Origin: Runella defluvii
Lineage (GTDB): Bacteria; Bacteroidota; Bacteroidia; Cytophagales; Spirosomataceae
Direction: 5' to 3'
Assembly (NCBI RefSeq): GCF_014195535.1
Contig: NZ_JACIBY010000005.1
Span: 59,807 to 123,806, forward strand
Length of the DNA: 64,000 bases
Shown here: positions 50,157 through 56,088 of the stretch, one piece after another
How positions within the stretch are numbered: the first letter of the stretch is position 1
Layout of the letters: each line of letters begins with the position of its first letter
The notes under the pieces: model-generated
Database searches by the model: none
Told to the model about the DNA's origin: nothing
Seen by the model: only the letters and a program-made list of their open reading frames with translations
Made by a program: the position numbers and the translations under genes

Positions 50157-50897
50157 ATGAAAGACTACCTCCAAACCTTCCCCGACAGCCCCGTTGCTTT
50201 CACTATGATTGCGATTGACGGGAACATGAATGGTGACCCGTTTAAAATGAGTGATACCTACCGAGTACGGTTGAGCGATTTTTGGATGGACCAATACCCC
50301 GTGACTCAAGCCCTGTGGGAGTATGTGATGCGTGATACGGATATGGTCAACCCATCGTATTTCAAAGGTGCAAACCGCCCTGTGGAAAATGTTTCTTGGA
50401 ATGATATTGACCAACTTTTTTTACCAAGACTCAATGAGGATACAAAAAACAACCGCCCTGCTAATACGATTTATCGCTTGCCTACCGAAGCCGAATGGGA
50501 GTACGCGGCGCGAGGTGGGAAATATTGGGACAAATACCCATTTGAATACGCGGGGAGCAATAAATTGGAGGAAGTAGGCTGGTATAGAAAAAATAGCCAG
50601 AATGAAACGCAGGTAGTAGGATTAAAAACGTCGAACCTATTGGGCTTGTACGATATGAGTGGGAATGTATGGGAGTGGTGTAGTGATTGGTATGATGAGG
50701 ATTTCTATAGTAGTTCTACTGCCAAGGTATCAGTCAATCCTACAGGCCCTACTATGGGCTCGTACCGCGTGAATCGCGGCGGTGGCTGGAGCTACTACGA
50801 GCGGAACTGCCGCTCTACGCTCCGCAGCAACGACTGGCCTGGGTATCGCGACGACGACGTTGGTCTTCGGTTGGTTCTTTCTTTCTCTGTAGTTTAG
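50157..50897 (+). CDS. FGE-sulfatase-fold (SUMF1-like) protein with DGR variable region, copy 1
   Basis: A 246-residue C-type-lectin-fold protein of the formylglycine-generating-enzyme family. Typical blocks are DFWMDQYPVTQALWEYVM, YRLPTEAEWEYAARGGKYWD, LGLYDMSGNVWEWCSDWYDE and the final RGGGWSYYERNCRS...GLRLV. Its last ~45 codons hold the hypervariable residues, and the repeat of these in the gene at 51894 shows DGR-type changes. The fold then acts as a binding scaffold rather than an enzyme. ATG 50157 was used; TTG precedes it. No signal peptide is visible, so it is cytoplasmic or exported by an unusual route. Confidence 0.88.
   Translation: MKDYLQTFPDSPVAFTMIAIDGNMNGDPFKMSDTYRVRLSDFWMDQYPVTQALWEYVMRDTDMVNPSYFKGANRPVENVSWNDIDQLFLPRLNEDTKNNRPANTIYRLPTEAEWEYAARGGKYWDKYPFEYAGSNKLEEVGWYRKNSQNETQVVGLKTSNLLGLYDMSGNVWEWCSDWYDEDFYSSSTAKVSVNPTGPTMGSYRVNRGGGWSYYERNCRSTLRSNDWPGYRDDDVGLRLVLSFSVV
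50763..50894 (+). repeat. DGR variable repeat 1 (VR1)
   Basis: Variable codons run 50763-50858, then a 36-base 3' flank (50859-50894) is identical to that of VR3. Compared codon by codon with 52497-52592, 12 of 32 codons differ. All 19 base differences fall in first or second positions of codons ending in C or T, and the other 20 codons are identical in all three positions. This is the expected outcome of adenine-specific mutagenesis of AAY codons in a template repeat. Confidence 0.85.
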
Positions 50898-50906
50898 AAG
50901 GGTAAA

Positions 50907-51047
50907 TCCCGTGAGCAAAAAAGGGTTCATTTTACCACAAAGGACACAAAGAAATTTGCACAAAGAGCGCAATGAAAGACTCAGACTTTGTGGCCATTGT
51001 GTCCTACTTTGTGTACTTTGCGTTTAAGAAACTGGAAGGCTAAAAAT
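50907..51047 (+). repeat. Intergenic repeat, copy A
   Basis: This spacer between FGE1 and FGE2 is nearly identical to the one at 51755-51893. It begins CCCGTGAGCAAAAAA, contains a palindrome of ACCACAAAGGACACAAAG with CTTTGTGG and TACTTTGTGTACTTTGCG, and ends at the start codon. The pair marks tandem duplication of the gene plus leader. Confidence 0.85.
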
Positions 51048-51749
51048 ATGCAAGACGCTTACACCGAATTTAAAAACACACCCGCTGCGTTTGATATGCT
51101 TTGGGTGGAGGGAGGCGTATTTGAGATGGGTAGCGAAGGTGAATATTCTGATTCTTTGCCTGTTCATAAAGTTGAGGTAAATAGTTTTTGGATGGGAAAG
51201 TTTGCTGTTACTCAGGCGTTATGGACGTATGTAATGCAAGAAAATCCCTCGAAATTTAAAGGAGCAAACCGTCCCGTAGAAAATGTGTCTTATAAAGATA
51301 TTATGAACGAGTTTTTGCCGAGACTGAAGAATATGACGGGGCTTGACTACCGTTTACCTACGGAAGCCGAGTGGGAATATGCTGCCAAAGGTGGAAAATA
51401 TGGCCATAAATACCCTTTTGAGTACGCGGGCAGTAATAAATTGGACGAAGTAGGCTGGTACGATAAAAACAGTCAAAATGAAACGCAGGTAGTAGGTTTG
51501 AAAACACCGAACCTCTTGGGTCTGTACGATATGAGTGGCAGTGTATGTGAGTGGTGTAGTAAGGAAGGTGATAATACAGACTTTATTGTAGACGGATTAC
51601 TGTTTCGTGGCACATTTCCGTACCGTGGAGGAGGGTGGATACATACCCAGGATAAGTGTAATTTAATACGTTCTACTAAAGATTTTTCAGGTATCTGTAT
51701 TAGCTATGTCGGCTTTCGACTGGCTCTTTTATATAGCTCAGTAGAGTAA
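51048..51749 (+). CDS. FGE-sulfatase-fold protein, copy 2 (no DGR variable region)
   Basis: A 233-residue paralogue. MLWVEGGVFEMGSEGEYSDS, NSFWMGKFAVTQALWTYVMQ, YRLPTEAEWEYAAKGGKYGH and LGLYDMSGSVCEWCSKEGDN follow the family order. The C-terminus differs from copies 1 and 3 (RGTFPYRGGGWIHTQDKCNL then GFRLALLYSSVE), is AT-richer in DNA, and has no NNY-codon pattern. It is therefore either a decoy, a fixed partner, or a copy that never received the variable repeat. ATG 51048 follows the repeated leader. Confidence 0.85.
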   Translation: MQDAYTEFKNTPAAFDMLWVEGGVFEMGSEGEYSDSLPVHKVEVNSFWMGKFAVTQALWTYVMQENPSKFKGANRPVENVSYKDIMNEFLPRLKNMTGLDYRLPTEAEWEYAAKGGKYGHKYPFEYAGSNKLDEVGWYDKNSQNETQVVGLKTPNLLGLYDMSGSVCEWCSKEGDNTDFIVDGLLFRGTFPYRGGGWIHTQDKCNLIRSTKDFSGICISYVGFRLALLYSSVE

Positions 51750-51754
51750 AATCC

Positions 51755-51893
51755 CGTGAGCAAAAAAAGGGTTCATTTTACCACAAAGGACACAAAGAAA
51801 TTTGCACAAAGAACGCAATGAAAGGCTTCTACTTTGTGGCCATTGTGTCCTACTTTGTGTACTTTGCGTTTAAGAAATTAGAAGGCTAAAAAT
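51755..51893 (+). repeat. Intergenic repeat, copy B
   Basis: The second copy of the ~140-base spacer described at 50907-51047, with a few substitutions. It leads directly to the start codon of FGE3. Confidence 0.85.
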
Positions 51894-52649
51894 ATGCAAG
51901 ACTCCTACACCGAATTTGAAAACACCCCCGCCGCGTTTGAGATGCTTTGGGTGGAGGGAGGTGTATTTGAAATGGGTGGTGAAAGTGTATTGGGCGATGC
52001 TTTGCCTGTGCATAGCGTAAAGATAGACTCTTTTTGGATGGGAGAGTTTACGGTGACGCAGGCTTTATGGGCCTATGTGATGGCGGGTACAGAGAAAGAA
52101 AATCCATCTGATTTTAAAGGAGCGAACCGACCTGTGGAAAAGGTATCTCACGATGATATTATGAACGAGTTTTTGCCAAAATTGAAAGCTATGACGGGCC
52201 TTGCATACCGTTTGCCTACGGAAGCGGAATGGGAATACGCGGCCAAGGGAGGGAAATATGGACAAAAATATCCTTTTGAGTATGCAGGCAGCAATAAATT
52301 GGAGGAAGTAGGCTGGTATAGAAAAAATAGCCAGAATGAAATACAGGTAGTAGGATTAAAAACGCCGAACTTGTTGGGCTTGTACGATATGAGTGGGAAT
52401 GTATGGGAGTGGTGCAGTGATTGGTATGATAAGGATTTCTATAGTGCTTCTACAGCTGCTGTAACAGTGAATCCTACAGGCCCTACTACGGGCTCGCTCC
52501 GCGTGTTTCGCGGCGGTGGCTGGCTCAACTACGAGCGGTACTGCCGCTCTACGAACCGCGACTACGGCTGGCCTGGGATTCGCTACGACCTCGTTGGTCT
52601 TCGGTTGGTTCTTTCTTTCTCTGTAGTTCAGGCGGGTAAAATCCCGTGA
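51894..52649 (+). CDS. FGE-sulfatase-fold protein with DGR variable region, copy 3
   Basis: A 251-residue paralogue. Its first ~40 residues resemble copy 2 (FEMLWVEGGVFEMGGESVLG), whereas the central region (SNKLEEVGWYRKNSQNE, LGLYDMSGNVWEWCSDWYDK) is nearly identical to copy 1, suggesting recombination between copies. The C-terminal region RGGGWLNYERYCRSTNRDYG and the following residues form the variable face. Because of base changes after the variable repeat it runs six residues further than copy 1 (ending QAGKIP). It lies 146 bases upstream of the LRR-Roc-CHAT gene. Confidence 0.88.
   Translation: MQDSYTEFENTPAAFEMLWVEGGVFEMGGESVLGDALPVHSVKIDSFWMGEFTVTQALWAYVMAGTEKENPSDFKGANRPVEKVSHDDIMNEFLPKLKAMTGLAYRLPTEAEWEYAAKGGKYGQKYPFEYAGSNKLEEVGWYRKNSQNEIQVVGLKTPNLLGLYDMSGNVWEWCSDWYDKDFYSASTAAVTVNPTGPTTGSLRVFRGGGWLNYERYCRSTNRDYGWPGIRYDLVGLRLVLSFSVVQAGKIP
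52497..52628 (+). repeat. DGR variable repeat 2 (VR in copy 3)
   Basis: Variable codons run 52497-52592 and the invariant 3' flank 52593-52628. Relative to VR1 the changes are AAY-type exchanges: CTC/TAC, TTT/AAT, CTC/AGC, AAC/TAC, GGC/GAC, ATT/TAT and others. The invariant flank GTTGGTCTTCGGTTGGTT is a candidate initiation-of-mutagenic-homing site. A short GGGTAAAATCCC hairpin follows shortly after, as in the other two copies. Confidence 0.85.
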
Positions 52650-52795: not shown

Positions 52796-55741
52796 ATGGC
52801 AAGACTCAACGAACTTACCCCAAAACTCACCCTCCAACAAGACGACGGTCTCATCACTGCCGTGCTCTTGGTGAAAGGCTACGACAACAGCTACGCGCTC
52901 AATGCCGCAGGGCACATCACGGCCTTTAGTTTGGGCAATAGCCGACTCAAGAAGTTGGTATTGGGCAAAGAAGCAGAAGCGTTAGAATACCTCTACTTCA
53001 GCGGGAGTGAGCCACTCACGGAGGTGGTTTTTGAAGTCCCTCTGCCGCAGCTTACGCATTTGTACTTAAACAATTGCGCCATCAAGCAAATCACTTTCCC
53101 TGCGGGTTTCAGGTCTTTGCAGCAAATCTATCTGCAAAAAAATGGCCTCCAACGGCTTGTTTTTGAGGGAGATTGTCCTTCGTTGGTGTTGATGGATGTG
53201 AGTGAGAATGAGTTGACCCAATTTTCGTTGCCTCAAGGCTTTGCCAATTTGACCTACCTGTATTTAAGCGGCAATCAGTTAGTAAGCCTTGAGGTGGCTA
53301 ACTTGGCGAAATTGAGCACTTTGTACCTTCAAAACAATCAATTTTCAAACCTGCCATTCCATTTTCAAAATACCCAATCAGGCGAAATACAACTTTGTTT
53401 ATCCAATGCCCCTTTAGTGGTTTTGGAGTTTTTACGCCTTTCTGCTAACCCACTGCCTGATGATATTCGAGGCTTTGTCGAAAATAACGATAATTGCCTA
53501 AACGAAATCAAAGCCTATTTCAAGGATTTATCCAAAGGAGAAACGTTGGACAATGAGTACAAAACACTTATTATAGGCAATGGCAATGTCGGCAAAAGCT
53601 GTTTGGTGGAGCGTTTAGTCTACAAGAGATTCAAAACTGAGTGGGACTCTACGCATGGCATTTCATTGGAACAGTTTTCTGACCAAAGTTACATCTTCAA
53701 CCTTTGGGATTTTGGCGGGCAAGATATTTACCATGCCACGCACCGTCTTTTTATGCAGTCTAACGCCCTCTATTTGGTGTTGTGGGATTCAAAAACCGAA
53801 CAGAGCGCGTTCACGGAACATCAGATAGGGAAGGAGTGCCGTCAGTATGAAAACTATCCGTTGGGTTATTGGTTAGACTACACCCACAATCAAGGCAAAA
53901 ACAGCCCCGTGATTGTGGTTCAAACAAAAACAAAACGGGATGGGGAGAAAGATTTGGCGGAGATTCGGGCAGCCTACAAAGATATCTTTACTTTTCTGAA
54001 ATTTGAGCACATTGACTCTCAGGAAGACGATTGGGACGAAAACGGCTTTAATTCTTTGCTGGCTGCCATGCGTTTGGCAGCAAAGCGTTTTAATCGAAAA
54101 CAGAAAACGCCTAAAAACAGAGCCGAAGTACGTCAGTCATTGCGCTTCAAACAAAAAGCGGGCGAAAAATACCTTTCCTTAGACGATTATTTGATTTTGG
54201 CAAAAGAGGTAACCAATCCAATTAGTGTTTTAGAAAACTGGCTGGTCAAAACAGGAGTAGTATTTTATCGTGCGGGTTTGTTTCAGGACAGTATCATCTT
54301 GGATCAGGCTTGGGCGATTGAGGCGATTTATACAATTTTCAGAAGAACCAACGAAAAAGGCCGACGAAACTCCACTTATTACGACATTCAAAGCCGCAAT
54401 GGCAGATTCACGGGAGAGGACTTGCAGGGAATTTGGGAAGAAAAATACAGTCCAGAAGAGCAAAATCTGTTCGTAAGCTTTATGCTTTCGTGTGAAATGT
54501 GTTTTGAAATCACTTCTCAAGAACATCCTGACCTCAAAGAATGGGAAATTCATTTTGAGCAAAGAAGTTTTGTAGCCCCGCAGTTGATGCCCGAAAACAA
54601 GCCCAAGAGCGTAGAAGATGTTTGGGAGGGGCGTTCGAGTTGGTATTTAACCTATCGCCACGATTTTCTGCATTACGGAGTTATTCAAAGTTTTATTGTA
54701 CGTACTCAAACTCTTGCCGAAATGCGGGATATATGGAAGTCGGGCATTTCTTTGAAAGATACGCACGATGGAGCCGTTCATTATGCCCTGGTAGAGTGTC
54801 AGGGCAATGAAATTCGGGTACGAGTGACGGCAGGAGGCAGAGTATTGCTTAATAAAATTCGGAACTTGTTTGAAAAACTGCGAGACAGCAAGGGTATAGA
54901 AACCGTCAGTCTCGACGGAGAAAATTATGTGCTGTTGGATGAATTGAAAAATCGCTCCAAAGACAATCCTAAACTTAAAACAGTGAACGGAACGTGGATA
55001 GAAGTGGATGGGTTGGAAGTTTTCTTGGAAAGGGATGAAAATGCAAGTTTTGATAAACCTAAAGAATCGGAACAGCGAAGCTCAGAAAAAGAACACCCCT
55101 CAACAAAAAAAATGATAGACAACTCAACACCCCACGAAGTAACAATGGCCGAAGGCGCCCGTAAGTTTGTGCCTTTCAGTGAGATAGAAGGGAAGATTAA
55201 GATTTTGTTTTTGGCGGCTAATCCTGATGATACATCAAGACTAAGAACAGACAAAGAAGGGAAAAAGTCTCAATTTGAGCTTAAATTAAGTGAAAACAAA
55301 GATAGATTCGAATTTATTTCAGTATTAGCTGCTACAAGTAAAGATTTTCAGAGAGAAATAGGGCATCACAAACCGCACGTTATTCATTATTCAGGGCATG
55401 GAGATAAGCATAGCCTTTATTTAGAGGATACAGATGTTACGACAGAATTGCTTACAAGTTTAATGGTTCGCTCAAAAAACGCTCAACTTGTTATTCTCAA
55501 TGCCTGCAATTCATTTGCGCATGGTGAAGCAATTGCTCAAAAAATTCCATACGTAATTTGTAACAGTAGTAAAGTAGATGATAAAGCTGCTATTGAATTT
55601 GCAGAAGGATTTTACATGGATTTCTTTGACTTAAGTGAAATTGAGGATTGTTTTGATAATGGCCTTTTATCCATCAAGTTAGCTAATTTACCCCATGCAG
55701 ATGTTCCTGTTTTGTTGAAGGGAACTCCTGCCAAATCATAA
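52796..55741 (+). CDS. LRR-Roc-COR-CHAT protein (GTPase with caspase-like protease domain)
   Basis: A 981-residue protein. Leucine-rich repeats occupy ~30-225 (LTHLYLNNCAIKQITFPAGF, LTYLYLSGNQLVSLEV). A Roc GTPase follows: Walker A GNGNVGKS (~261-268), G3 LWDFGGQD (~303-310) and a degenerate G4 (VQTKTKRD in place of NKxD). A COR-like region spans ~400-700. After a charged linker comes KIKILFLAANPDDTSRLRTD and a CHAT domain with His in HYSGHGD (~868) and Cys in LNACNS (~904). The architecture predicts ligand sensing by LRR, GTP-dependent switching and protease release. ATG 52796 was preferred over TTG 52781. It is downstream of the DGR-diversified FGE genes. Confidence 0.88.
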   Translation: MARLNELTPKLTLQQDDGLITAVLLVKGYDNSYALNAAGHITAFSLGNSRLKKLVLGKEAEALEYLYFSGSEPLTEVVFEVPLPQLTHLYLNNCAIKQITFPAGFRSLQQIYLQKNGLQRLVFEGDCPSLVLMDVSENELTQFSLPQGFANLTYLYLSGNQLVSLEVANLAKLSTLYLQNNQFSNLPFHFQNTQSGEIQLCLSNAPLVVLEFLRLSANPLPDDIRGFVENNDNCLNEIKAYFKDLSKGETLDNEYKTLIIGNGNVGKSCLVERLVYKRFKTEWDSTHGISLEQFSDQSYIFNLWDFGGQDIYHATHRLFMQSNALYLVLWDSKTEQSAFTEHQIGKECRQYENYPLGYWLDYTHNQGKNSPVIVVQTKTKRDGEKDLAEIRAAYKDIFTFLKFEHIDSQEDDWDENGFNSLLAAMRLAAKRFNRKQKTPKNRAEVRQSLRFKQKAGEKYLSLDDYLILAKEVTNPISVLENWLVKTGVVFYRAGLFQDSIILDQAWAIEAIYTIFRRTNEKGRRNSTYYDIQSRNGRFTGEDLQGIWEEKYSPEEQNLFVSFMLSCEMCFEITSQEHPDLKEWEIHFEQRSFVAPQLMPENKPKSVEDVWEGRSSWYLTYRHDFLHYGVIQSFIVRTQTLAEMRDIWKSGISLKDTHDGAVHYALVECQGNEIRVRVTAGGRVLLNKIRNLFEKLRDSKGIETVSLDGENYVLLDELKNRSKDNPKLKTVNGTWIEVDGLEVFLERDENASFDKPKESEQRSSEKEHPSTKKMIDNSTPHEVTMAEGARKFVPFSEIEGKIKILFLAANPDDTSRLRTDKEGKKSQFELKLSENKDRFEFISVLAATSKDFQREIGHHKPHVIHYSGHGDKHSLYLEDTDVTTELLTSLMVRSKNAQLVILNACNSFAHGEAIAQKIPYVICNSSKVDDKAAIEFAEGFYMDFFDLSEIEDCFDNGLLSIKLANLPHADVPVLLKGTPAKS

Positions 55742-55764: not shown

Positions 55765-56088
55765 ATGCCCAACATCATTTACGAATACCAAAACGAAAAA
55801 GGCGAAACCATTTTGGTGCAAGCCGAGGATATTCGCAGTACTTCCAATGTCCGTGGAGGCCGAGACAGCGAAGAGTCAACCATCAAAAGAGTACAAGTAC
55901 GTTTTGAGGAAGCGCTAGGAACTGTAAAAGCGGCCGCAAGCGCGCTCAAAAACGTGGTAGATGAGGTAAAACCCGATGAGTTTTCGGTAGAGTTCAACCT
56001 CAAAGCCGAAGGAAAAGCGGGCTTTTTTGCCATTTGTCAGGCAGCTACGGGGGCAGAGTTTAAAATTACGTTGACGTGGAAAAAATAA
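55765..56088 (+). CDS. Trypco1-like (CU044_2847 family) protein
   Basis: A 107-residue cytoplasmic protein. IIYEYQNEKGETILVQAEDI, an acidic helix (FEEALGTVKAAASALKNVVD), and EFSVEFNLKAEGKAGFFAIC followed by GAEFKITLTWKK match the trypsin-co-occurring domain. That domain is typically encoded beside proteases and GTPases of conflict systems and is thought to regulate or deliver protease activity. It starts 23 bases after the CHAT protease gene, which supports a joint function. Assignment is from pattern memory. Confidence 0.75.
   Translation: MPNIIYEYQNEKGETILVQAEDIRSTSNVRGGRDSEESTIKRVQVRFEEALGTVKAAASALKNVVDEVKPDEFSVEFNLKAEGKAGFFAICQAATGAEFKITLTWKK

Follow-up and report, generated by a model that had tools for sequence, protein, structure and literature searches.

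Variable FGE-fold genes of Runella defluvii as probable orphaned targets of a diversity-generating retroelement

Introduction

How did two tandem genes of Runella defluvii come to end in a repeat that varies only at the first two positions of certain codons, and does the genome still hold the machinery that could write such variation? The genes, here FGE1 and FGE3, encode proteins of the formylglycine-generating enzyme (FGE)-sulfatase fold and lie in a stretch of 64,000 nucleotides (the window) on contig C5 of an assembly of 7.99 Mb in 50 contigs that is 99.99% complete. Their terminal repeats, VR1 and VR3, resemble the variable repeats (VRs) of a diversity-generating retroelement (DGR), whose cassette includes a reverse transcriptase (RT) and a template repeat (TR). 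The window genome (G000) was compared within a set of 13 genomes of the genus Runella, itself included, with one genome per species; Runella sp. MFBS21 (G011) and R. zeae DSM 19591 (G012) are among these. The reading favored here, with a probability of about 0.87 on the evidence of sequence comparison, is that FGE1 and FGE3 were targets of a DGR and have become orphaned from its cassette.

Pattern of variation in the two repeats

A first-pass annotation, made from the DNA letters alone, reported that 12 of 32 codons differ between the two repeats (50763-50858 and 52497-52592), and recomputation codon by codon gave the same result. All 19 base differences affect the first or second base of a codon with C or T as its third base, and no third position differs, while the remaining 20 codons match in every position and the next 12 codons, a stretch of 36 bases, are likewise identical. 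The same annotation dismissed ordinary paralogue drift, and rightly: the bodies of FGE1 and FGE3 are rich in third-position change, with 49, 39 and 80 differences at first, second and third positions of 196 aligned codons, as against 11, 8 and 0 in the 34 codons of the repeat (Fisher p=1.2e-5 for the third-position share). The repeats sit, by sequence, at the 3' ends of C-type-lectin/FGE-fold genes.

The specificity for adenine becomes apparent when the repeats are scored on the TR of a congener, genome G009; A sites in the window VRs are thus defined by another species' template, the window genome having yielded no TR of its own. On this scoring every difference between VR1 and VR3 falls on an A site: 19 of the 32 are changed, as against 0 of 70 other sites (Fisher p=1.7e-12). 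The paralogue between them, FGEmid, serves as an internal control: between G000 and a second congener, G005, its corresponding 34 codons show one non-synonymous and one synonymous change, and the FGE1 and FGE3 repeats show 15/34 non-synonymous codon changes in each. It had been cautioned that A's in a few invariant codons (GAG, ACG) stayed unmutated in both window copies. That observation stands for the window; in G009 such A's are mutable (ACG to GCG in one VR, CAG to CGG in the other); at the window GAG codon the G009 template reads GCG.

At six non-A sites VR1 and VR3 share a state that the G009 TR lacks; five of these states are found in the G005 VR3 and three in the G005 VR1, and a T at alignment position 101 occurs in both window repeats and in neither G005 VR nor the G009 TR. 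These shared states fit a lineage template, slightly unlike that of G009, that would have rewritten both window genes not long ago. The 36-base invariant stretch after each repeat is the putative position of a 3' anchor resembling the initiation of mutagenic homing (IMH) element, which we take to be the usual name for a conserved anchor of this kind. Within the anchor region the G009 TR reads GTA and all six compared VRs read GTT; the TR has A at the one differing base, and this may be a simple A change.

A complete cassette in a congener

The template that the pattern called for exists in G009. Its TR adjoins a DGR-type RT and has AAC or AAT opposite each of the 12 variable codons of VR1 and VR3, as had been predicted. 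RT, accessory gene, TR and VR lie in one locus, in the order HRDC, RT, TR, FGE with VR, LRR-Roc-COR-CHAT, Trypco1, and one contig holds the HRDC gene, the RT of 335 residues and the TR together with one of the FGE genes. The TR differs from its own two VRs at 19/32 and 17/32 A sites and at 0/70 other sites in both cases. The RT translation shows IGNLTSQ and YMDD, of which the former corresponds to IGxxxSQ, presumably a hallmark of DGR RTs. The accessory gene is not the Avd that had been anticipated; the RT is preceded by a gene for an HRDC-domain protein, the two genes overlapping by 20 nt. In the two plasmid sequences that match this RT best (37-38% identity), the matching stretch touches or overlaps a gene with the annotation avd, a DGR protein.

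A mobile source of the cassette was not found: among plasmids (1785 records) and phages (145 records, five of them Bordetella phages) every match to the G009 RT is below 60% identity, and in viral contigs the top segment among the best 80 of 116 matches has 44% identity. When 222 genomes of the family were searched with the same RT at 1e-30, six matched, namely G009 and five of other genera at 33-37% identity. RTs this distant are within reach of the search, and it detected none in G000, G005, MFBS21 or R. zeae at that threshold.

Search for the cassette in the window genome

The first-pass annotation had also predicted a TR and a DGR RT in this genome, and neither was found by DNA, RVT_1 profile or G009-query searches. 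TR-like DNA searches with VR1 and an inferred template as queries returned the two VRs and otherwise only matches of 15-28 bases with E of 0.08-6, which were rejected as templates because they are short and weak. The 1.7 kb cassette of G009 as a query likewise matched the two VRs only and detected no other fragment of a cassette. With the G009 RT as query, nothing was found beyond a Drt4/AbiK-like protein at 23% identity (E=0.0066). A profile search for RVT_1 at E <= 0.001 gave a single match in the genome, a defense RT of 539 residues resembling Drt4/Drt6/AbiK (contig C18:66440-66898; L005:694-2313, minus strand); it was rejected as a DGR RT because the Drt4, Drt6 and AbiK models score best.

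In the assembled window genome, therefore, targets are present and no complete DGR was detected, neither a DGR RT nor a TR having been found. The earlier interpretation survives as to the origin of the repeats, as VRs on FGE-fold genes, and fails as to a cassette within this genome. It had named the absence of a TR or DGR RT as one observation that would overturn it; neither was found, and what G009, R. zeae and MFBS21 show is a cassette gone missing rather than one that was never active.

Remnants of the cassette across Runella

VR- or TR-like DNA is present in 5 of the 13 Runella genomes. The locus order in the window is PBP1C, FGE1, FGEmid, FGE3, LRR-Roc-COR-CHAT, Trypco1; in G005, assembled in 4 contigs, PBP1C is likewise followed by three FGE genes and an LRR gene, and the RVT_1 search of that assembly gave no match. 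R. zeae and MFBS21 have a fossil cassette in the interval that separates their second FGE gene from their third: a piece of 65-66 bases from the 3' end of the RT gene (88-89% identical), a template shrunk to its two ends, and the 3' flank of the TR (87%). The breakpoints are identical in the two species, which indicates that the cassette was already dead in their common ancestor or that the dead form has spread.

An rpoB tree groups G000 with G005 and G002, places G009 apart from these, and joins MFBS21 with R. zeae; it covers 11 of the 13 genomes, G007 having been left out for a truncated stretch and G008 for lack of a match. Possession of a VR without an RT requires three changes on this tree, two of them forced by well-supported branches, and these may be losses or transfers.

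Downstream of the TR in G009 (L040:7570-7775, minus strand) the 3' flank is well conserved and ends in a terminator-like hairpin. Because it is 87% identical in the fossils, it may form a structured segment of the DGR RNA. The flank folds, and the three sequences show little covariation (1 of 55 pairs changed on both sides), too little for an RNA family to be claimed; an Rfam scan of four loci gave no match at the gathering threshold.

Other RVT_1 matches number one in MFBS21 and five in R. zeae, of which two in the latter were examined. On contig C14 of R. zeae (L055:1351-3382) an RT gene stands directly before a putative Cas1-like gene and is perhaps CRISPR-associated. The second FGE gene of MFBS21 (L043:5014-5738) is seemingly interrupted, with an open frame of 130 residues beyond which homologous sequence runs on.

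Probable orphaned targets and alternative explanations

If FGE1 and FGE3 are orphaned targets, an error-prone RT would have copied a template of about 100 bases with template A's turned into other bases, and the resulting cDNA would have overwritten the 3' ends of both genes up to the fixed 3' anchor, that is, by mutagenic retrohoming. An HRDC-RT-TR cassette of the G009 kind would since have gone from the window genome, and both VRs are probably frozen now unless another cell supplies new alleles. Several observations weigh against this sequence of events. The G009 cassette and the first FGE gene of that genome are on two contigs whose sole link is a perfect overlap of 119 bases at their ends. 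The window genome has no cassette fossil, which leaves G009, R. zeae and MFBS21 as the grounds for a loss at this very locus. The DNA search detected no VR in G002, a near neighbor of G000 on the rpoB tree. The negative search of the window genome was aimed at RT and TR, with no separate query for an HRDC protein. With 50 contigs, the assembly might lack a piece that holds a cassette, which its completeness of 99.99% makes improbable. The comparison has one genome per species, so that the past rate of rewriting and the present freezing are presumed. In G005, VR1 and VR3 differ at 16/32 A sites and also at 5/70 non-A sites, consistent with an earlier stop to rewriting in that genome. Finally, G000 and G009 are 89% identical in 986 nt of the CHAT-Trypco1 end and 84% in rpoB, so that the locus itself probably moves between lineages, and recombination may have brought in the target genes with no cassette.

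This last point leads to the possibility that the target genes, or only their variable ends, were imported from cassette-bearing strains into a lineage that maybe never had a cassette, an explanation that we hold improbable without being far-fetched. Between G000 and G005 the third positions of FGE1 (68/199 codons of the body), FGE3 (36/201) and the LRR gene (205/972) diverge more than those of FGEmid (17/188) and PBP1C (93/802), and alleles have probably been replaced. R. zeae and MFBS21 share the cassette breakpoints, yet their FGE3 ends (L042:7121-7855 and L043:3922-4662) differ at 22/32 TR-A sites and 4/70 others, an A-specific difference that is odd and that the local dead cassette does not explain; it is due either to import, or to another template source after the split, or to alleles older than the split. 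The ends of the first FGE gene in the same pair are nearly identical, with four third-position differences in 34 codons. Import is also favored by the six non-A states of VR1 and VR3, most of which are not private to the window, and was named as an alternative for one target gene by the authors of a report on Treponema denticola (PMC4891356). Nevertheless, the G009 cassette and the fossils of R. zeae and MFBS21 occupy corresponding places, which suggests a cassette already resident in an ancestor, and the agreement of VR1 and VR3 at 70/70 non-A sites, the T at position 101 included, is explained simply by one resident template. In MFBS21, 21/32 A sites and 10/70 others distinguish the end of the second FGE gene from that of the third, which counts against an A-only pattern in that pair; comparison rows for the second FGE gene of R. 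zeae, out of register by one codon, were left out.

An active DGR in the strain, outside the assembly or extrachromosomal and acting on FGE1 and FGE3 in trans, would account for the same absence of non-A differences between repeats whose gene bodies diverge widely, since the two were probably rewritten from one template recently; activity in trans has been proposed for Thiohalocapsa PB-PSB1 (PMC10907252). This is nonetheless very unlikely, given the completeness of a genome in which no DGR-like RT or TR was found, the lack of an RVT_1 match in the four-contig G005, and the distance of all plasmid, phage and viral-contig matches noted above. Strongly disfavored is an origin without any DGR, in which paralogues under diversifying selection or gene conversion would have acquired their first- and second-position changes by chance. 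As a matter of general knowledge, tandem paralogues can be homogenized by gene conversion and selection can favor amino-acid change at a binding face; against this stand a real TR beside an RT in a congener, with its AAC/AAT codons at the 12 variable places, and the complete lack of non-A differences both between VR1 and VR3 and between the G009 TR and each of its own VRs, next to gene bodies rich in third-position change.

A broader and rather unlikely reading is that the Runella DGR acts at the level of the lineage instead of the cell, a few cassette-bearing strains creating sensor variants and cassette-less genomes renewing their own again and again by taking up whole variable gene ends through recombination. 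This would explain the FGE3 difference between R. zeae and MFBS21 despite their common dead cassette, and the faster change of FGE1 and FGE3 than of FGEmid and PBP1C between G000 and G005.

Protein fold and possible role

Pfam PF03781 matches all three FGE proteins of the window. The best match of FGE3 by sequence in the PDB, 2y3c, is variable protein 1 of T. denticola and aligns through the VR, so that the variable residues fall in the part of the fold aligning with the end of a DGR variable protein. The family also contains the formylglycine-generating enzyme itself (6s07), to which the window proteins have a sequence match and from which they differ in a variable cysteine: the enzyme stretch FLCHESYC, whose cysteine pair we take to be the catalytic copper site, aligns with WLNYERYC in FGE3 and WSYYERNC in FGE1. 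One of the two aligned cysteines is replaced, at a variable codon, so that neither protein keeps both and enzymatic activity is unlikely. Judged by analogy, the FGE proteins most likely sense ligands on behalf of the neighboring LRR-Roc-COR-CHAT protein, as part of a defense or conflict system; that protein may be their GTPase-protease partner or effector. In G009 the same Roc-COR-CHAT and LRR domains occur next to the FGE gene.

Relation to known systems

A literature search pairing diversity-generating retroelement with Runella found no report. T. denticola belongs to a different phylum from Runella. In its DGR the HRDC accessory gene overlaps the RT gene as an alternative to Avd, and isolates that have lost RT and TR keep VR-bearing targets, which were read as leftovers of a lost DGR (PMC4891356). 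The Runella system is alike in its FGE/C-type-lectin variable protein, in the HRDC-RT overlap of G009 and in its orphaned targets, and unlike in that the T. denticola accessory gene lies between TR and RT (PMC4891356), the G009 order being HRDC-RT-TR, and in that the target genes are others. Moreover, the Runella targets adjoin LRR-Roc-COR-CHAT and Trypco1 genes, and two species keep a cassette fossil.

Other parallels come from conflict systems. Thiohalocapsa PB-PSB1 is described as having DGR targets with FGE, CHAT and Trypco2 domains as putative antigen sensors; its FGE/C-type lectin (CLec) targets, like those of Runella, stand in conflict-system neighborhoods, and some of its loci are incomplete with variable targets (PMC10907252). 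It differs in that other DGRs of that genome were proposed to act in trans and its targets carry effector domains (PMC10907252), whereas no DGR RT was found in the window genome, whose FGE proteins are separate genes beside the Roc-COR protein. In conflict systems as proposed in two reports, an FGE/CLec domain senses the invader and proteases respond (PMC10907252, PMC7159879). The ternary systems in the latter are similar to the Runella set in an FGS/FGE domain linked to DGRs and in Trypco1 and GTPases among the components, but are described there for MoxR-vWA (PMC7159879), where the window has LRR-Roc-COR-CHAT.

Orphaned DGR targets and an HRDC accessory are thus already known from T. denticola, and the useful part here is the genus-wide cassette series. 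In one genus, one DGR locus is seen with the cassette present, with the template collapsed beside an RT fragment, and with the cassette absent, a series that lets the loss of the mutator and its effect on the targets be dated and tested. It also links variable FGE proteins, made by a DGR on the reading preferred here, to LRR-Roc-COR-CHAT and Trypco1, a set that fits a sensor-GTPase-protease conflict system.

Features of the locus

Coordinates of the window features and of the two fossil cassettes are collected in Table 1.

Table 1. Features of the FGE locus in the window, and cassette remnants in two other Runella genomes
Feature	Location	Strand	Basis or remark
FGE1, FGE-sulfatase-fold (C-type-lectin-type) gene with 3' VR	50157..50897	+	Pfam PF03781, E 7.5e-42, given from 50154
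VR1 of FGE1	50763..50864	+	DNA match to G009 TR at about 50761-50888; codon comparison
Invariant 36-base stretch after VR1	50859..50894	+	Identical to stretch after VR3
Spacer repeat copy 1, upstream of FGEmid	50917..51046	+	
FGEmid, paralogue without DGR-type variation	51048..51749	+	PF03781, E 2.4e-35, given from 51054
Spacer repeat copy 2, upstream of FGE3	51763..51892	+	95% identical to copy 1
FGE3, FGE-fold gene with 3' VR	51894..52649	+	PF03781; best PDB sequence match 2y3c
VR3 of FGE3	52497..52598	+	DNA match to G009 TR at about 52499-52622; codon comparison
Invariant 36-base stretch after VR3	52593..52628	+	
LRR-Roc-COR-CHAT protein	52796..55741	+	Pfam Roc, COR-A, COR-B, LRR, CHAT, given from 52799
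Trypco1 (trypsin-co-occurring domain 1) protein, same gene group	55765..56088	+	PF19493, E 2.6e-20
Fossil DGR cassette, R. zeae	L042:6809-7095		RT 3' end, collapsed TR, 3' flank
Fossil DGR cassette, Runella sp. MFBS21	L043:4688-4970	minus	RT 3' end, collapsed TR, 3' flank

The spacer repeats upstream of FGEmid and FGE3 do not fold clearly better than shuffled sequences (z -0.73 and -1.23). A widespread miniature inverted-repeat transposable element is unsupported as their identity, since the genome contains the 130-base repeat only in these two full copies, together with one partial match of 34 bases.

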